NCBI GenBank assembly: GCA_027482185.1
Contig: JAIXWF010000022.1
Location: 372,001 to 436,000 of the forward strand
Reading direction: 5' to 3'
Source of the DNA: Opitutaceae bacterium
GTDB taxonomy: Bacteria > Verrucomicrobiota > Verrucomicrobiia > Opitutales > Opitutaceae
DNA: 64,000 nucleotides
The number at the start of each line of letters is the position of its first letter. Positions within the stretch are counted from its first letter, which is position 1. This document shows, piece by piece, positions 25,593 to 39,515 of the stretch. The translations under genes were made by a program, and so were the position numbers. The notes below the pieces were generated by a model. It was not told where the DNA came from. It was given only the letters and a program-made list of their open reading frames with translations, and did no database searches.

Positions 25593-25611
25593 TTTAGGTC
25601 GGGGGGCGGAG

Positions 25612-25741
25612 GTTTGGAGTTTGGGGTTTGGGGTTCGGAGTTGGGGGCGGAGACGGAGGGAGGTTTTGGGTTTTGAGTTTTGGGTTCTGGGGCGGAGGGG
25701 GGCGAAATTTGGAGTTCGGAGTTCGGGGTTCGGAGTTGGGG
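25612..25741. repeat. Heptad word arrays, composite element copy 1
   Basis: There are three blocks of 7-base words. The first has five words of the GTTTGGG / GTTCGGA kind (25612-25646). The second has four of the GTTTTGG kind (25663-25690). The third again has GTTCGGA-type words (about 25707-25741). The same block order is found at 32249-32385, and a compact form at 38673-38756. Confidence 0.85.
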
Positions 25742-25747
25742 GGCATG

Positions 25748-31861: not shown

Positions 31862-31920
31862 GTAGGGGCGCGCCTCGTGCGCGCCCAGGTTGAATGGGCG
31901 CGCACGAGGCGCGCCCCTAC
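31862..31920. repeat. REP1 inverted pair with perfect 25-base arms
   Basis: The copy at 31862-31886 (plus) and the copy at 31896-31920 (minus) are exact reverse complements over all 25 bases, with a 9-base spacer (AGGTTGAAT). Each alone folds as GTAG plus an 8-base stem with loop CTCGT. It is the best conserved BIME-like unit in the window. Confidence 0.92.
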
Positions 31921-32210: not shown

Positions 32211-32252
32211 AAACTCCACGTCGCCGCGCGCAAGCACGGGGACGTGGAGTTT
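32211..32252. repeat. 12-base perfect inverted repeat
   Basis: AAACTCCACGTC at 32211-32222 is exactly complementary to 32241-32252, with an 18-base loop. Its right arm runs into the first heptad word of the following array. Confidence 0.65.
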
Positions 32253-32385
32253 CTTGTTTGGAGTTTGGAGTTCGGAGTTTGGAGTTGGAGGAGCGCGGCG
32301 GTTTTGGGTTTTGGGTTCTGGGTTTTGGGTTGGAGCGCGGAGGCGCGGAAGTTTGGGGTTCGGGGTTTGGAGTTGGGAGTTGGGA
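32249..32385. repeat. Heptad word arrays, composite element copy 2
   Basis: Six words of the GTTTGGA kind (32249-32290) are followed by a 10-base spacer and five GTTTTGG-type words (32301-32335). After another spacer come five GTTTGGG / GTTGGGA-type words (32351-32385). Block order and words match the element at 25612, and the same GCATGAAAAAA terminator module follows. Confidence 0.87.
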
Positions 32386-32398
32386 AAATGCGGGCATG

Positions 32399-32473: not shown

Positions 32474-33643
32474 TCAGAACTTCGGGAACTTGACCCACTT
32501 GGCGCCGGCTTTGCCTGACTTCACGGCGGTCTCGATGAAGGCCATGCCGGCGAGGCCGTCGTCGATATTCGGGAAGTCGTAGCCGGTCTTCGGCGCTTTG
32601 CGGCCGGCGATGGAGTCGGCGATGGCGGCGCCGGCGCTGCGGTACACGTTGGCGAAGGCTTCGATGAAGCCTTCCGGATGCGCGAACGGCGTGCGGATCG
32701 CGCCCTTGGCGGCGGCGCTGTGGTAGCTGTTGCCGCGGCGGTGGATTTGCTGCGGGGCGTCGGCTTTTTTCCAGATGAGCTCGTTGGGATTTTCCTGGAA
32801 CCACTGCAGCGAGCCCTGGGTGCCGAAGACGCGGATGTTGAGGTTGTTTTCCTCGCCGCTGGAGATCTGCGAGGCGAAGAGGATGCCCTTCACGCCGCCG
32901 GAGAAACGCACGAGGCAGTTGCCGTCGTCGTCGAGCAGGCGGCCGGGAATGAACGTCGAAAGCTCGGCGCAGATTTCCTCGATCTCGAGGCCGGTGATGT
33001 AGCGGGCGAGGTTGTGCGCGTGGGTGCCGATGTCGCCCATGCAATTCGAGACGCCGGAGACGTTGGGATCCATGCGCCAGTTGGCGATCTGCGAGGGCTT
33101 GGCGTCCTCGAAGGCGCTCGTCGCGTAGCCCTGCGGGTACTCGACGACGACCTTGAGCAGCTTGCCGAGTTTGCCGGCGCGGACCCAGTCGCGGGCCTCC
33201 TTCACCATCGGGTAGCCGGTGTAATTGTGCGTGAGGGCGAAGACCTTGCCGGACTTCTTCACGATCTCGCGGAGCTTGAGGCCTTCCTTGAGGGTGAAGC
33301 AGAGGGGCTTGTCGCAGACGACGTGGAAGCCGGCCTCGAGAAACGTTTTCGCGACGGCGGCGTGGGTGTTGTTGCGCGTGACGATCGATACGAAGTCGAT
33401 GCGTTGGTCGGCGGGGAGCGCGGCCTCGGCCTTCGCCATTTCCTGGTACGTGCCGTAGACGCGCGCGGGATCGAGGAAGAAGTCGGCGCCGGAGGCCTTG
33501 GACTTGGCGGGATCGGAGGAGAAGCAGCCGGCGACGAGGTCGATCTCGCCGTCGAGGCGGGCGGCCATGCGGTGGACGGCGCCGATGAAAGCGCCGCGGC
33601 CGCCGCCGATCATGCCCATGCGGAGTTTGCGGGGGAGGTTCAT
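32474..33643 (-). CDS. Gfo/Idh/MocA family oxidoreductase
   Basis: A 389-residue NAD(P)-dependent sugar dehydrogenase without an export signal. The Rossmann motif is MGMIGGGRGAFIGAVH. The EKP block is VVCDKPLCFTLKEGLKL (Asp for Glu), and the catalytic region has SNCMGDIGTHAHNLARYITG with the conserved Asp and His. It belongs to a group often encoded with sugar isomerases and probably oxidises a hexose or glycoside, perhaps at C3 as in known 3-keto-glycoside pathways. That reaction is inference. It is the last gene of a minus-strand series with another Gfo/Idh and a sugar isomerase-like gene, and it ends in an intrinsic terminator. Confidence 0.92.
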   Translation of the reverse strand: MNLPRKLRMGMIGGGRGAFIGAVHRMAARLDGEIDLVAGCFSSDPAKSKASGADFFLDPARVYGTYQEMAKAEAALPADQRIDFVSIVTRNNTHAAVAKTFLEAGFHVVCDKPLCFTLKEGLKLREIVKKSGKVFALTHNYTGYPMVKEARDWVRAGKLGKLLKVVVEYPQGYATSAFEDAKPSQIANWRMDPNVSGVSNCMGDIGTHAHNLARYITGLEIEEICAELSTFIPGRLLDDDGNCLVRFSGGVKGILFASQISSGEENNLNIRVFGTQGSLQWFQENPNELIWKKADAPQQIHRRGNSYHSAAAKGAIRTPFAHPEGFIEAFANVYRSAGAAIADSIAGRKAPKTGYDFPNIDDGLAGMAFIETAVKSGKAGAKWVKFPKF

Positions 33644-33652
33644 GTGCGGGGG

Positions 33653-33739
33653 AAGTAGCGGGTAGCGGGTAGTGGGTAGCGAGTAGGTGATGGGCGGGCG
33701 CGAGCGGTGATGCTCGCTACCCGCTACACGCTCCTCGCT
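33653..33739. repeat. Heptad arrays, inverted arms
   Basis: Five 7-base words of the GTAGCGG type (33653-33687) are followed by four complementary words (TCGCTAC, CCGCTAC; 33712-33739). They fill the spacer between two co-directional Gfo/Idh genes and can fold into a hairpin. Confidence 0.82.
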
Positions 33740-33749
33740 ACGGTTCGGA

Positions 33750-34832
33750 TCAGAGCGCGACCGGCTTGCCGGTGGCGGCGGATTTGTAGGCGCCGTCGAT
33801 GATCTTCATCAGCGAGAGGGCCTGGTCCGGGGTGTTGAGCGGTTTCTCGGTGCCTTCGAGGACGCGGATGAAGTTGGTCGCGGAACGGACGCGGCCCATC
33901 GTCTCGTCGGCGGGGACGATGATGTCGCGGTTCACGTGGCGGCCGTTTTCCAGCGAGTAGAGCTGGCAGGCGTCGAGCGCGGTGGCGTCGATGCCGTCGG
34001 TGCCGAAGAGACGGCGGACGAGGCCGCCGGCCTTGGTGCCCTGGAAGGTGACGGACACTTCCTCGCGGTGGTTGAGCTCGGCCCAGGAAACGGCGAACGA
34101 CATCGACTGGCCGGTCTTGAAGGTGACGAAACCGTGCGCGGCGGCTTCGACATCGGTGACGCCCTTGGCAACATCGGGGATGCCCCAGGGGCCCTTGAAG
34201 GCCTTGTTGTCGATGTTGTCTTTGTACGTGCGCGCGAGCACGTGGGCGGGTTCGGGGTAGCCCATGAAGTGGAGCCCGAGGTCGATCATGTGGAGCAGAT
34301 CGATGAGGGGGCCGCCGCCGGAGAGGGCCTTGGTGGTGAACCAGCCGCCGAAGCCGGGGATGCCGGCGCGGCGGATCCATTTCGCCTGGCAGGTGTTGAT
34401 GGTGCCGACGGCGCCCTGGGCGATGTACTCCATCATCGCGTAGCTCTCGGGGCGGGCGCGGTTGTTGAAGTTGAACATCAGGGTGCGCTTGGCCTTTTCG
34501 CCGGCGGCCTTGAGGGCGGCCATTTCCTTGGCGCTGAGGGCGGGCGGCTTTTCGCAGAACACGTGCTTGCCGGCCTTGAGGGCCTGGAGGGCGAGGGGCG
34601 CGTGGAATTTGTTCGGGACGATGATGGAGACGGCGTCGAGCTCGGGCACGGCGCGGAGCATCTCGGCGACGTCGGAGAAGACGCGCGGGATGCCGTGTTT
34701 GGCGGCGGCCTTTTCGGCGGCGGCCTGGTTGACGTCGGCGAGCGCGACGATCTCGGCGCCGGCCTCGCGGAAACCCTTGGCGTGATAGGCGGCCATGCCG
34801 CCGGCGCCGATGATGGCGATTTTGATAGGCAT
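33750..34832 (-). CDS. Gfo/Idh/MocA family oxidoreductase
   Basis: A 360-residue cytoplasmic dehydrogenase. IAIIGAGGMAAYHAKGF is the dinucleotide site, HVFCEKPPALSAKEM the EKP motif, and SGGGPLIDLLHMIDLGLHFMG the substrate-domain block with conserved Asp and His. The ending (GAYKSAATGKPVAL) is typical of the family. It is likely involved in oxidising or reducing a keto-sugar or inositol-like compound together with the flanking genes. It is separated from both neighbours by spacers that each contain the GTAGCGG-type heptad hairpin, an unusual sharing within one gene series. Confidence 0.92.
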   Translation of the reverse strand: MPIKIAIIGAGGMAAYHAKGFREAGAEIVALADVNQAAAEKAAAKHGIPRVFSDVAEMLRAVPELDAVSIIVPNKFHAPLALQALKAGKHVFCEKPPALSAKEMAALKAAGEKAKRTLMFNFNNRARPESYAMMEYIAQGAVGTINTCQAKWIRRAGIPGFGGWFTTKALSGGGPLIDLLHMIDLGLHFMGYPEPAHVLARTYKDNIDNKAFKGPWGIPDVAKGVTDVEAAAHGFVTFKTGQSMSFAVSWAELNHREEVSVTFQGTKAGGLVRRLFGTDGIDATALDACQLYSLENGRHVNRDIIVPADETMGRVRSATNFIRVLEGTEKPLNTPDQALSLMKIIDGAYKSAATGKPVAL

Positions 34833-34837
34833 ATGAA

Positions 34838-34939
34838 GTAGCGTGTAGCGACTAGCGGGTAGTGAGTAGAAAGAAGGCGCGAAAGCAGAGCGGGTATCGA
34901 AAGCGTGATGCTCGCTACCCGCTGCCCGCTACCCGCTAC
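34838..34939. repeat. Heptad arrays, inverted arms
   Basis: Four words of the GTAGCGT / CTAGCGG type (34838-34865) are followed by four complementary words (TCGCTAC, CCGCTAC; 34912-34939). The right arm ends at the first base of the isomerase gene's stop codon. It is a second copy of the hairpin at 33653. Confidence 0.82.
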
Positions 34940-35979
34940 TACTTCTGTTTGTCGAACTGCGCGTCGAAGACGATCGCGCTGGAGGGGAAGTCGATCTTGC
35001 GGACGAAGGCGGCGGCCTCGGTGCCGCCGTGGATGCGGTCCATGCGGCTGTCTTCCCATTCGACGGAAAGCGGGCCGCGGTAGCCGACATCGTTGAGGGC
35101 GACGATGATGTCCTCGAACTTGATGTCGCCGTGGCCGGGCGAACGGAAATCCCAGAAACGGCGGGCGTCGCCGAAGCTGACGTGGCCGCCGAACACGCCG
35201 ACGGTGCCGTCGCCGTGGCCCCACCACACGTCCTTGACGTGCATGTGGAAGATGCGGGGGCCGAAGGTGCGGATGAACTTCACGTAATCGACGCCCTGAT
35301 ACCCGAGGTGGGAGGGGTCGTAGTTGAAACCGAAGCGGCGGTGGCCCTTGACGGCTTCGATCGCGCGCTGGGAGCTGGCGATATCGAAGGCGATTTCCGT
35401 CGGATGGACCTCGAGGGCGAAGTTGACGTCGGCCTTTTCGAAGGCGTCGAGGATGGGGCCGAAGCGTTTGCCGAAGTCGGCGAAGCCGGCGTCCCAGAAC
35501 GCCTGCGAGGTCGGCGGGAAGGCGTAGATGGAGTGCCAGATGCTGGAGCCGGTGAAGCCGTTGACCACGGCGGGGAAGTCGTCCTTGGCGCCGCGGCCGG
35601 GTTTGGCGTCGAAGAAGGCGCGGGCGGCCTTGGCCGTGAGCGCGAGTTTGCGGGCGGCGCGCTTGCGGACGCCCTCGGGGTCGCCGTCGCCCCACACATC
35701 GGAGGGAAGGATCGACTTGTGGCGTTCGTCGATCAGGTCGCAGACGGCCTGGCCGACGAGGTGGCTCGAGATGGCGTTGCAGGTGAGGCCGTGGTCCTTG
35801 AGCAGCGCCCATTTGTCATGGACGTACTTCTTGCTCGAGGCGGCGGCATCGACGTCGAAGTGATCGCCCCAGCAGGCGAGTTCGACGCCGTCGTAGCCCA
35901 TCTTCTTGACGAGCGGGGCGAGTTTTTCGAGCGGGAGATCGGCCCATTGGCCGGTGAACAGGGTGACAGTACGGGGCAT
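34939..35979 (-). CDS. Sugar phosphate isomerase/epimerase-like TIM-barrel protein
   Basis: A 346-residue xylose-isomerase-like TIM barrel (AP endonuclease 2 superfamily). It starts [22 protein letters not shown]. Metal-binding residues are expected in [12 protein letters not shown] (Glu), [14 protein letters not shown] (Asp, His), [10 protein letters not shown] (His) and [11 protein letters not shown] (Glu), and all are visible. It probably isomerises or epimerises a keto-sugar produced by the neighbouring Gfo/Idh enzymes. The start is the ATG at MPRTVTLF. It is first in the minus-strand series and divergent from another TIM-barrel gene, with a REP1 pair in the spacer. Confidence 0.92.
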
Positions 35980-36070
35980 GGTAATTGAGAAAGGACGGAG
36001 CATGCTCCCGCGCGTCCCAGAGGGCGCAAGGCGGAAGTTGGCGCGGCGGCGGGCGGCGGCGCGGTTTGGG

Positions 36071-36122
36071 GGAGGGGCGTCCCTCGTGGGCGCCCTCGGG
36101 CGTGGACGAGCCCCGCCCCTAC
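36071..36122. repeat. REP1 inverted pair, divergent copies
   Basis: The copy at 36071-36095 (plus) starts with GGAG instead of GTAG, has the arm GGGCGTCC, loop CTCGT and arm GGGCGCCC. The copy at 36098-36122 (minus) starts with GTAG and has one stem mismatch. Only two bases separate them. Confidence 0.75.
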
Positions 36123-36136
36123 AGTCGGGTCGACCG

Positions 36137-36164
36137 GAAAACCGCGGCGGGCGCGGCGGTTTTC
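36137..36164. terminator. Terminator-like hairpin in a divergent spacer
   Basis: GAAAACCGC (36137-36145) pairs with GCGGTTTTC (36156-36164) around a 10-base loop, and both strands end in a T run. It lies upstream of the TIM-barrel gene at 36227 rather than behind a gene. It may insulate the divergent units or act as an attenuator. Confidence 0.4.
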
Positions 36165-36226
36165 GTGTCATGCCGCCGGCGATTCTGCGCTTCGCTCCGG
36201 CGGCGGCACCGGCCAACGTCGGCGTC

Positions 36227-37027
36227 ATGCCTTTGCTGCGCTGTCTTTCCTCGCTCGGTTGCGCCGACCTCACGTTGGCGGAGACGCAGGCGTTGGCGCG
36301 GGCGCACGGCGTGGATACGATCGAGCTGCGGGCGCTCGAAGGCACGACGGACCTGCCGGCATTGTTTGCCCGGCGCTTCGGCACGCCGGCGGAGTTGGCC
36401 GCGGCGGTGCGGGCGGGCGGCGTGCCGGTGGTCGGGCTCAATGCTTCGCTGAAGTTGGCCAACGCGACCGCGGCCGACCGGGCAGCGTTGCTCGCTTACG
36501 TGACGTGGGCGGACGCGCTGGGGGCGTGCCGGCTGCGGGTCTTCGACGGGGGCGCGACGGCGAGCCCGGAAGAATTGGCGGCGGCGGCGGCGACGTGGCG
36601 ATGGTGGCGCGAGTGGCGCGCGGCGCAGCCGGGGCCGGCGGAGCTGGCGGTGGAGACGCACGATTCGCTGTTCACGGCGGCGGCGCTGGAGCGTTTTCTG
36701 CAGGCCGTGCCGGATGCGCCGATCCTGTGGGACGCGCACCACACCTGGCGCAAGGGCGGCGAGGACCCGCTCGTCACCTGGGCGGCGATCCGCGGGCGCA
36801 CCGTGCACGTCCACATCAAGGACAGCATCCCGGTGCCGAGCGCGCGGCATCCGTTCACCTATGTGTTGCCGGGGGACGGCGGGTTTCCGGTGGCGCCGTT
36901 GCTCGCGGCGCTGCGGGCGGAGGCGTTCGCCGGGCCGGTGAGCCTCGAGTGGGAAAAGCTGTGGCACCCGTATCTGCCGACCTTGGACGAGGCGTTGCGC
37001 ACGGCGGCGGCGCGGCGGTGGTGGTGA
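36227..37027 (+). CDS. Xylose-isomerase-like TIM-barrel protein
   Basis: A 266-residue small TIM barrel of the sugar isomerase/AP endonuclease 2 superfamily. It shows [28 protein letters not shown] at the start, then [33 protein letters not shown] and [11 protein letters not shown], which hold the usual Glu, Asp, His, His and Glu metal ligands. An alternative in-frame ATG at 36170 would add 19 residues, but the terminator-like hairpin ends just before it and the added residues look unstructured. It is divergent from the larger isomerase at 34939 and followed by apt on the same strand. Confidence 0.85.
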
Positions 37028-37112
37028 GCGGGCGGGCCGCGGAATCCGGTTTCGCCGGCTTGCCCCGGGCGCACCGGGCCGCTGTGGTTTTCGTTTTCCC
37101 CCTCCCGCCCCG

Positions 37113-37664
37113 ATGACTTCCGCCGACCTGGCCGTTTTCCTGAAATCCCGCGTGCGCACCGTGCGCGATTGGCCGATCGCGGGGGTGAACTTCCGCGACG
37201 TGACGACGCTGTTCGGCGACCCCGATGCGTTCCGCGCCATCGTGGACGCGCTGGCGGCGGAGGCGCAGCGGCTGCGCATCGCGCGGATCGCGGCGGTCGA
37301 TGCGCGCGGCTTTCTGCTCGGCGGCGCGGTGGCGTACGTCACGCACACGCCCTTCGCGCTCGTGCGGAAGAAGGGCAAGCTGCCGTACCGCACGGTCGCG
37401 ACCGAGTACGCGCTCGAGTACGGCAAGGCCACGATCGAGATCCACGCCGACGCCTGCGCGCCGGGCGACCGCGTGCTGATCGTCGACGACCTCATCGCGA
37501 CCGGCGGCACGCTGCTGGCGGCGGCGAAACTCTTCCGCCAGCTCGGCGGCGAAGTCGTGGGCGTGGCCGCCGTGATCGATCTGCCCGGGCTCGGCGGATC
37601 CGAAAAACTGCGGGCCGACGGGCTCGGCGTGCACACCCTCTGCGCTTTTTCCGAACATGAGTAA
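37113..37664 (+). CDS. apt: Adenine phosphoribosyltransferase
   Basis: A 183-residue enzyme converting adenine and PRPP to AMP. The N-terminal RTVRDWPIAGVNFRDVTTLFGD is diagnostic for Apt. AAVDARGFLLGGAVAY is the base-side loop and FALVRKKGKLP the flexible loop. VLIVDDLIATGGT is the canonical PRPP-binding motif. Length matches the family. The stop lies inside the following dehydrogenase gene (8-base overlap), so the two are co-translated. Together with the PRTase at 31255 the window encodes two purine-type PRTases, and this is the standard one. Confidence 0.96.
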   Translation: MTSADLAVFLKSRVRTVRDWPIAGVNFRDVTTLFGDPDAFRAIVDALAAEAQRLRIARIAAVDARGFLLGGAVAYVTHTPFALVRKKGKLPYRTVATEYALEYGKATIEIHADACAPGDRVLIVDDLIATGGTLLAAAKLFRQLGGEVVGVAAVIDLPGLGGSEKLRADGLGVHTLCAFSEHE

Positions 37665-38643
37665 GCCGACCGCCCCGCTCACCATCTGGTGCAACGCGCA
37701 GTTCGGCGAGGCCGACACGCGGTTGCTGGCCGAAGGGACGGGGCGGCATCGGCTTGTTTTTTCCGCCGCGGCCTCGAAGCAATATCTGGCCGCCGGAAAA
37801 CCCGATCCCGTGCTCGCCGCGGCGGACATCGCGTTCGGCCAACCCGACGTCGCGCAATGCCTCGCGAACCCGCGGCTGCGCTGGGTCGAGGTGACGACGG
37901 CGGGCTACACGCGGTACGACACGCCGGAATTCCAGGAGACGTTCCGCGCCCGCGGTTCCGCTTTTTCCAATGTATCGTCGGTCTTCGCGGATTCCTGCGC
38001 GCAGCATGTGCTCGCAATGATGCTGGCGCTCGGCCGCCAATTGTTGCCGTCGTTCCGGGACCAATTGGGCGACCACAGTTGGCACTACGACGAGCGCCGT
38101 TACGAGTCGCGCCTGCTCACGGGCCAGACGGTGCTCCTCCTCGGTTTCGGCGCGATCGGGCGCCGGTTGGCGGAACTGCTGGCGCCCTTTGGGATGACGA
38201 TCCTCGCCGTGCGGCGGCAGGTGCGCAGCGAACGCGGTGTGCGCATCTTGCCGGAAGAGCAATTGAGCAGCGCGCTCGCGCAGGCGGACCACGTCGTGAA
38301 TATCCTGCCCGACAACGCGAGCACGCGGAACTACGTCAACGCCCGCCGGCTCGGCTGCGTGAAGCCGGGTGCGCGTTTCTACAACGTCGGCCGCGGCGTC
38401 ACGGTGGACGAGAACGCGTTGCTCGAGGCGCTGCGCTCGAAACGCCTCGGCGCGGCCTACCTCGATGTGTTCGCGACGGAGCCGTTGCCCGTCGACCACC
38501 CGCTCTGGTCCGAGCCGAACTGTTTCATCACCCCGCACACGGCGGGCGGTCGCCACGATCAGGATACGGCGATCGTGCGGCACTTCCTCGAAAATCTGGC
38601 CGCCTTCGAAAAGGGCGCGCCGATGATGGATCGGGTGGTGTGA
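37657..38643 (+). CDS. D-2-hydroxyacid dehydrogenase family protein
   Basis: A 328-residue NAD-dependent dehydrogenase. The dinucleotide fold is VLLLGFGAIGRRLAELLAPFG. The catalytic Arg lies in YNVGRGVTVDENAL, the Glu in DVFATEPLPVDHPLW and the His in TPHTAGG, so the full Arg-Glu-His triad is present. It reduces a 2-keto acid or oxidises a 2-hydroxy acid in the cytoplasm; the substrate is unknown. The start ATG overlaps the end of apt by eight bases. A run of twelve perfect heptad words begins 30 bases after its stop. Confidence 0.92.
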   Translation: MSKPTAPLTIWCNAQFGEADTRLLAEGTGRHRLVFSAAASKQYLAAGKPDPVLAAADIAFGQPDVAQCLANPRLRWVEVTTAGYTRYDTPEFQETFRARGSAFSNVSSVFADSCAQHVLAMMLALGRQLLPSFRDQLGDHSWHYDERRYESRLLTGQTVLLLGFGAIGRRLAELLAPFGMTILAVRRQVRSERGVRILPEEQLSSALAQADHVVNILPDNASTRNYVNARRLGCVKPGARFYNVGRGVTVDENALLEALRSKRLGAAYLDVFATEPLPVDHPLWSEPNCFITPHTAGGRHDQDTAIVRHFLENLAAFEKGAPMMDRVV

Positions 38644-38672
38644 GGCGGAAACGGACGCGGAGCGGATAGTGG

Positions 38673-38756
38673 GTTTTGAGTTTTGGGTTCTGGGTTTGGG
38701 GTTCGGAGTTCGGAGTTTGGGGTTTGGGGTTCGGAGTTGGGGGTTCGGAGTTGGGG
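38673..38756. repeat. Twelve contiguous heptad words, composite element copy 3
   Basis: Twelve uninterrupted 7-base words start with GTT: three of the GTTTTGG kind, then nine of the GTTTGGG, GTTCGGA or GTTGGGG kinds. It lies between the 3' ends of the hydroxyacid dehydrogenase and the RAYT-like gene, 30 bases from the RAYT stop codon. It has the same words as 25612 and 32249 but lacks the terminator module. Confidence 0.92.
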
Positions 38757-38785
38757 GCGCGGTTGCGCGCGAGGCCGCGTGTCGG

Positions 38786-39388
38786 TCAGCGCGTCGAGGG
38801 GTGGGCTTCGCCGGGATGGGCGAAGCCGGCCAAGACGGGATTGCGCCGGAGCAATGCGACCGCCTCGGCCCAGCTGCGGGGATGGCGGAGGCGTTGTTCG
38901 GTCCACGCGGATTCCCAGAGCGGGCCGGGAGGGGCGCCAAGGCGGCGGAGGGCGGCGGCGGTGCGGCTCTTGAGGCGGCGGACGGCGTCGGCGCAGGCCT
39001 GCGCGCAGCGCGGCCCGGGCACGAGGAGGGCGTGCCAGTGGTTCGGCATCACGGCGAAATGCGGGACGGCGATGTCCCACTCGGCGAGGGCTTCGAATTC
39101 GGCGACCACGGCGGCGGCGGCCTGCGGATCGCGCAGCCGGCAGGCGCCGCCGTCGGCGTGGAGCAACATTTCGAGCAGGCGGAAGCCGTGGCGTTGCCAG
39201 CCGGCGAGGTCGGCGGGGCGAAGGCGGAGATCGGCCGGGGCGGATTCGAAATCGCGGAAACGCAACCGCGAGGCCGCGGCGAGGCTGTCGGCCAGCCGCA
39301 CCGTGACGAGCCGCGCGCCGGTGCGGGCGGAGTCGCGGCGGCCCGAGACCGGGCGGAGATCGGCGACAGCAGGGGCGGGGGCGGACAC
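38786..39388 (-). CDS. RAYT-family HUH protein lacking the catalytic tyrosine
   Basis: A 200-residue protein of the REP-associated tyrosine transposase (Y1/IS200-like) family. LVTVRLADSL (residues 27-36) is the conserved first strand block. PHFAVMPNHWHALLVPG holds the HUH metal motif (H117, H119). VRRLKSRTAAALRR matches the K-x-x-T-A helix, and LRRNPVLAGFA the C-terminal block. In relatives the nucleophile is the Tyr four residues before the Asn of NPV; here that position is Leu179, and the whole protein has no tyrosine. The frame is intact. Flanks carry a heptad array (3' side) and a REP2 copy about 100 bases upstream. It may bind REP hairpins without cleaving them. Confidence 0.88.
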   Translation of the reverse strand: MSAPAPAVADLRPVSGRRDSARTGARLVTVRLADSLAAASRLRFRDFESAPADLRLRPADLAGWQRHGFRLLEMLLHADGGACRLRDPQAAAAVVAEFEALAEWDIAVPHFAVMPNHWHALLVPGPRCAQACADAVRRLKSRTAAALRRLGAPPGPLWESAWTEQRLRHPRSWAEAVALLRRNPVLAGFAHPGEAHPSTR

Positions 39389-39492
39389 GGGCCCAGCGCA
39401 GGCGGCGCCGGGGCGGAAGGAAGCGGGCGGAGGCCCGAAATCTCGGTAGAGGCGGGACTTGACGGCAGCGGACCGGGGTGTCGGCGGAAGGG

Positions 39493-39515
39493 CACGGGCT
39501 GAAGCTCCGTGCTAC
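39493..39515 (-). repeat. REP2 hairpin near the RAYT gene
   Basis: On minus: GTAG, arm CACGGAG, loop CTTCA, arm GCCCGTG. Five outer pairs form, including an A-T pair where the 24716 copy has C-G, a compensatory change. It lies 105 bases before the RAYT start. Confidence 0.7.

Follow-up and report, generated by a model that had tools for sequence, protein, structure and literature searches.

A RAYT-derived open reading frame without tyrosine in an Opitutaceae genome, probably an orphaned remnant of a REP-associated transposase

RAYTs have been described as vertically inherited, domesticated transposases whose exact function is unknown (PMC8049555), and the catalytic Tyr and the HUH motif are conserved in every RAYT of the alignment presented in PMC3733652. 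In the 64,000 nucleotides of Opitutaceae DNA analysed here (contig JAIXWF010000022.1; the window), one RAYT-like open reading frame (ORF) encodes no Tyr at all. Does it specify an enzyme with another chemistry, a protein kept for binding alone, or a relic under relaxed selection? Relics of mobile-element genes are common. Previously, a sequence-only reading had taken the gene as one that lost cleavage, had not decayed and may have been retained as a REP-hairpin binder. Our literature search, limited to open-licence PMC, found no report of a Tyr-less or pseudogene RAYT. The relevant features of the gene are as follows.

38786 to 39388, minus strand: RAYT-derived ORF of 200 codons with a GTG start and no Tyr in its translation (ORF and profile match)
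39032 to 39040, minus strand: His117-Trp118-His119 (HWH), the HUH metal motif, retained (alignment with relatives)
38885 to 38917, minus strand: W158 to R168, a degenerate version of the WQxEWFDRWxR motif (alignment with relatives and PDB 4er8)
38852 to 38854, minus strand: Leu179 (TTG), where the nucleophilic Tyr sits (alignment with relatives and 4er8)
38840 to 38842, minus strand: Asn183, aligned to the metal ligand N119 of E. coli TnpAREP, retained (alignment)

The segments VTVRLADSL, MPNHWH and NPVLAG are all present in the focal protein, which matches NCBIfam REP_Tyr_transpos (E 4.3e-10, 39.7 bits; curated cut-off 80) and Pfam Y1_Tnp (E 0.0013, 19.3 bits; cut-off 23). As judged from the sequence, the ORF is RAYT-derived beyond chance. 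The other two RAYT-like genes of the same genome keep the Tyr and score 78.5 and 63.4 bits, also below 80. Therefore, the NCBIfam cut-off cannot separate living from dead genes here, and low family scores were dropped as a sign of decay. The lack of a Shine-Dalgarno sequence was likewise dropped as such a sign, as none is evident for the focal gene or for its relatives. No promoter, terminator or Rfam match was found between 38600 and 39760, and PHROGs gave no match.

The gene has a GC content of 0.76 (GC1 0.80; GC3 0.88, which is host-like). Two frames on the plus strand, of 277 and 257 codons, are also open there, and hence an open frame of 200 codons is weak evidence. GARP residues make up 48% of the protein (93rd percentile of 198 called genes) and FYMINK residues 6% (2nd percentile), and 5 of the 40 called genes of 150-250 aa, the focal gene among them, are without Tyr; these percentiles and this count rest on crude gene calls. 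The absence of Tyr is consistent with the overall composition of the protein. The stop-to-stop frame holds one Tyr, which lies 5′ of the GTG.

The class 2 HUH motif is given as Y---NP in PMC6006769, where N119 of E. coli TnpAREP binds the metal together with the HUH histidines. A profile of the relatives places positions 179 and 183 on Y115 and N119 of PDB 4er8 (residues counted by hand). H117, H119 and N183 are present in the focal protein, so that the HUH motif and the Asn metal ligand are in place. Residue 179, four positions ahead of the N in NP where a RAYT carries Tyr, is Leu (codon TTG, within AEAVALLRRNPVLAG). The comparison set comprised 81 rows (80 GTDB loci and L003, the same gene as L137), found via intact-motif patterns and thus biased to intact proteins; 78 of the 79 rows with a residue at position 179 have Tyr there, and one has Cys. 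Y115F and Y130F mutants were inactive in the assays reported in PMC8266576. Since the focal protein has no Tyr, the known covalent Y1 chemistry is unusable and, as far as its sequence tells, the protein cannot cut DNA by that chemistry. The sequence-only reading was right to describe a Tyr-less RAYT-family frame with Leu179, MPNHWH and the NPVLAG block, and its claim that no covalent DNA link can form holds. The loss of the Tyr is not a shared feature of the comparison rows, and no Tyr was found at another aligned position.

How far has the rest of the protein changed? No close homologue of the focal gene was found in the genus (27 genomes), in the family (252 genomes), on plasmids, or on GTDB contigs among the best 80 of 185 loci, and dN/dS was therefore not computable. 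Another search of GTDB contigs confirmed no relative. Six of the 27 genus genomes, the source genome counted, match the focal protein at E 1e-12, and matches occur in 26 of the 252 family genomes. The six best genus matches are 38-41% identical (E down to 3.5e-41), and the top identity over the 27 genus and 252 family genomes is 43%, or 44% for a partial, stop-bearing hit (L038). Opitutaceae RAYTs of the same subfamily (L003-L007, L031-L037, L039-L041; L137-L148) are colinear with the focal protein and 36-43% identical over most of codons 23-200; across codons 24-200 (177 codons) there is no gap relative to L003 or L004. However, the 15 aligned Opitutaceae relatives keep LPHWE, WFDRWxR and the Tyr (Cys for Tyr in L035/L146), whereas the focal protein does not.

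Of the 44 columns that are invariant among these 15 relatives, the focal protein keeps 23 and has lost 21; in leave-one-out comparisons every relative retains 94-100% of the invariant columns. Its terminal branch is the longest of the 27 rows in the tree (2.28 versus a median of 0.32), and its placement beside L003 is weak (59/66), with a differing composition. The losses include LPHWE near the N-terminus, Y26 and F27 of the first strand, K74, D77, and most of WQxEWFDRWxR (Q159E, E161A, F163T, D164E, R165Q and W166R). In PMC8266576, Q95, D100 and R104 of E. coli TnpAREP are among the residues contacting the REP GTAG; these match Q159, D164 and R168 (counted by hand on the 4er8 alignment). Two of these three GTAG-contact positions are changed in the focal protein (E159 and E164), and R168 is kept. 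Q159 occurs in 80 of the 81 comparison rows, and the change at 164 may be mild, as the 4er8 chain itself has Glu at 100.

The searches also returned other unusual RAYT-like sequences. L149:3001-3591 (= L043, in G226) is a RAYT relative with one in-frame stop and is likely a broken copy. In L011 (508-3375, plus strand), L012 (703-2895, minus strand) and L025 (526-2925, plus strand), RAYT-like domains lie in-frame inside unrelated host proteins. In this set, one lies between HSDR_N and SWI2_SNF2 of a type I restriction R protein, one in an ORF with two creatininase stretches, and one ahead of the chorismate-binding domain of an isochorismate synthase-like ORF. The joints of the RAYT domain in L012 and L025 resemble translated repeats.

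An AlphaFold2 model of the focal protein (26 rows) has a mean pLDDT of 87.6, and its only longer segments below 50 are residues 1-9 and 13-17. The best PDB match of the model is 4er8, a RAYT bound to a REP hairpin (Foldseek E 2.9e-6), and VIA-align superposes the two with Z 14.6 and rmsd 2.3 over 129 residues, that is, with the TnpAREP fold. As the AlphaFold2 alignment included relatives, the model indicates a sequence compatible with the fold rather than a protein that does fold. The RAYT fold can probably still form, as far as such a model tells. The focal protein is like E. coli TnpAREP (PDB 4er8; class 2 Y1 HUH) in predicted fold, HUH motif, Asn of the NP and a nearby GTAG hairpin; in contrast to TnpAREP, it has no catalytic Tyr, its GTAG-reading positions are altered, and its gene has no flanking REP pair of the class found beside relatives.

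Does the gene still have a repeat partner? The elements and genes that bear on this question in the window are as follows.

39491 to 39515, minus strand: REP1-type singlet, GTAGCACGGAGCTTCAGCCCGTGCC, about 105 bp ahead of the focal start (repeat search)
31862 to 31920, no strand assigned: inverted pair of REP2, no REP2 adjoining the focal gene (repeat search)
32474 to 38643, no strand assigned: gene block of w32474, w33750, w34939, w36496, a phosphoribosyltransferase and a hydroxyacid dehydrogenase (locus comparison)

At up to 3 mismatches, the genome contains 96 matches to REP1 (GTAGCNCGGGNCTTCAGCCCGNG), with 1 in the control, and the REP1 stem covaries at its second position (A-T, C-G, G-C). 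REP2 has 89 matches genome-wide (control 2), many in inverted pairs. A third class, REP3, is GTAG-SGCSGGTC-TNN-GACCSGCS or near variants, and REP3-type hairpins adjoin 7 of the 11 RAYT loci examined; CTTCAG-type repeats occur at three of the 11 (L130, L132 and the genome's own RAYT on contig C21), with none at L133. Within 450 bp of the focal gene, we found no REP pair and no REP3-class element, only the one REP1 singlet; REP singlets are regarded as mostly decaying remnants in PMC3116915 and PMC8049555. A decayed REP3 copy just upstream (39446) was considered and rejected, since 303 of 1500 random stretches score as well.

REP3 was counted in 11 chosen genomes. The source genome has 1 match at up to 2 mismatches and the control also 1, which is background. 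At the same threshold G006 has 0, G015 5 and G164 22, and genomes with intact relatives have 20 (G025), 115 (G017), 141 (G010), 136 (G001), 13 (G253), 99 (G085) and 355 (G101). In Pseudomonas, REP number is linked to the cognate RAYT according to PMC3390384, and Opitutus terrae is said in PMC3733652 to be highly enriched in GTAG repeats. REP2 as the cognate REP of the focal gene is unsupported: it is richest in G004 (325) and G005 (142), neither of which matches the focal protein at E 1e-12. The focal gene may nevertheless have switched to REP1 or REP2. As for the description of the gene as lying among REP-like elements, the elements are real, but most relatives have a different class beside them.

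Three further observations concern the repeats. The 64-kb window holds 7 of the 89 genome REP2 matches, between 17476 and 53508, which is about 8 times the 0.9 that an even spread would place in it. Three stretches, 25597-25742, 32234-32386 and 38665-38757, consist of imperfect G/T-rich repeats of 7 nt (GTTYGGR-like), and a CTCAACCCTCAACT-like tract follows each of them at a distance of no more than about 1 kb. Furthermore, L146:3001-3579 (= L035, in G164), another RAYT of the focal subfamily, carries Cys in place of the catalytic Tyr and is otherwise intact, with REP3-type elements on both sides and the 22 REP3 matches of G164 mentioned above.

The location of the gene also differs from that of its relatives. 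In 4 of 10 relative loci (G025, G017, G253 and G085; three genera), the RAYT lies directly downstream of the orthologue of w32474-33643, and three of these four loci also carry w33750, w34939 and w36496; the other 6 RAYT loci are elsewhere. In the source genome the block is present, and the RAYT-derived ORF lies at its opposite end, 143 bp past the hydroxyacid dehydrogenase. No convincing tblastn match to a RAYT remnant was found at the shared site (10285-32474). Of the dehydrogenase loci in the genus, those of the 24 other genomes with a match all lack a RAYT in the flank (up to 1.5 kb), and none of 12 OppA orthologue loci has one in its flank (8 with the full 1.5 kb). The closest OppA neighbour found is that of G006 (93%), whose contig ends inside that gene. 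Either the gene moved, or the region was rearranged, or the ORF stems from an independent copy; the locus comparison accommodates all three. In other words, the Opitutaceae relatives are mostly flanked by REP3-type elements and occupy one shared site in 4 of 10 loci, and neither applies to the focal gene. A shared position of the RAYT behind one 389-aa gene (loci L126, L127, L133 and L134; four genomes, three genera) is consistent with vertical inheritance.

Contig C21 of the source genome holds a second RAYT (L064:1512-2128) that has the Tyr and is split over two frames at about 1953. Like the focal gene, it is a RAYT of this genome that is likely broken; unlike the focal gene, it keeps the Tyr and WFDRW, belongs to another subgroup and is adjoined by REP1, as an inverted pair at 1453 and 1490. 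Its break is a single frameshift and possibly an assembly error.

Could mere neutral change have produced the focal ORF? Neutral substitution runs began from the relatives other than L039 (14 of 15) and were stopped once they had lost 15 of 38 core invariants, the same loss that the focal core shows; the models were simple and covered substitutions only. About 0.2 substitutions per site suffice for this loss. The runs stayed stop-free in 10-17% of cases at an equilibrium GC of 0.695-0.76 and in 38% at 0.87; in DNA so rich in G+C, an open frame therefore does not prove retention. In profile score, the focal protein does no better than the neutral runs (P 0.14-0.20 with left-out profiles; P 0.32-0.38 in the other run set). 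Its GC3 of 0.88 was reached by no run starting at the relatives' own GC3 (0.53-0.82) and by 9-73% of runs whose starts were recoded to GC3 0.90, and its GC1 lies above nearly all runs (P 0-0.0125).

Some signs of constraint were nonetheless seen. The longest kept run of conserved columns spans 14 of 71 (L85-P124, including HWH; permutation P 0.006); on the 40 fully invariant columns the same test gave P 0.23, and runs tests gave 0.12 and 0.25. Hydrophobic core, absence of helix proline and absence of stops are jointly unusual in the simulations (P 0.011-0.013) and singly not significant. With an assumed indel:substitution ratio of 0.05-0.1, several gaps would be expected after about 0.2 substitutions per site, and none is present relative to L003 or L004 over codons 24-200. 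These results suggest to us that selection relaxed while the fold stayed under some constraint until recently; they do not prove a function.

Which explanation accounts best for these observations? With both the Tyr and the REP association missing, the ORF is classed as a degenerate derivative rather than a RAYT. The reading we favour is that it is an orphaned RAYT (TnpAREP) remnant under relaxed selection, which is likely though far from certain. The lost invariant columns, the long branch, REP3 at background, a position away from the shared RAYT site, the frameshifted C21 RAYT and the share of neutral runs without stops favour this reading; the missing gaps, GC1 and GC3, the kept run around HWH, the joint fold test, the retained HWH and Asn183 and the pLDDT of the model weigh against it. 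That the ORF results from a sequence or assembly error, or from the spurious reading of a frameshifted gene, is very improbable: the genome assembly consists of 24 contigs and the high-G+C stretch has open frames on both strands, but the differences from the relatives are many separate replacements in a single frame of colinear length, and neither WFDRW nor LPHW occurs in the other ORFs listed at the place. It is hardly credible that another nucleophile or another mechanism replaced the Tyr in a recently active enzyme. Leu is not a nucleophile, no Tyr is found anywhere, WFDRW and LPHWE are lost and REP3 is at background, against which stand the retained metal ligands and the Cys at the same position in the otherwise intact L035/L146, a relative from another genus with 22 REP3 matches in its genome.

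Alternatively, selection may have kept the HUH fold and the metal site as a non-catalytic binder of single-stranded or hairpin DNA after the Tyr was lost, the fast change reflecting a new ligand. This is doubtful, although it deserves some weight. It would agree with the gap-free 177 codons relative to L003 and L004, the joint fold-retention test (P about 0.01), the HUH segment that is unusually intact in one of the four clustering tests, the kept HWH and Asn183 within a predicted RAYT fold, and the host-like GC3. However, about half of the family-invariant positions and LPHWE are lost, two of the three aligned GTAG-reading positions are changed, REP3 is at background, no homologue above 44% identity was found in the 27 genus or 252 family genomes, and the profile score does not exceed that of neutral runs. 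The earlier assertion that the gene has not decayed is thus not established, given the 21 of 44 invariants lost, the longest of 27 branches, and a frame that stays open in 10-38% of neutral runs. Its retention as a REP-hairpin binder is weakened as well: the changed GTAG-reading positions (Q159E and D164E, with R168 kept) and the missing REP3 population argue against REP binding, and LPHWE and Y26-F27 are gone. Broken relatives do exist, namely the frameshifted C21 copy and the stop-bearing L149, but neither is orthologous at the focal locus.

For the orphaned remnant, we infer the following order of events, with relaxed selection as the cause. The ancestral lineage would once have served the GTAG-hairpin class REP3. 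The copy now lies about 6 kb from the RAYT site shared by four relatives, without flanking REP3 and without LPHWE. With REP3 at background in the genome, the enzyme would have been left without a substrate of that class. Selection would then have relaxed, and drift would have changed the Tyr, the residues that read GTAG and about half the invariant positions, mostly towards GC-rich codons, the high G+C helping to keep the frame free of stops. With the known chemistry, the resulting protein could not cleave DNA, and it has most likely ceased to serve REPs.

If the ORF is under selection after all, the fold would be useful without cutting. Specifically, a RAYT without nucleophile or REP partner may have been selected as a metal-containing, non-cutting HUH binder of structured single-stranded DNA or RNA; this is unlikely, but such a binder, if true, would be a second domestication step past the known domestication of RAYTs. 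Here, the nucleophile and the cognate repeats are gone while same-genus relatives keep both, and the locus thus constitutes a natural experiment on the death of a REP-RAYT pair.
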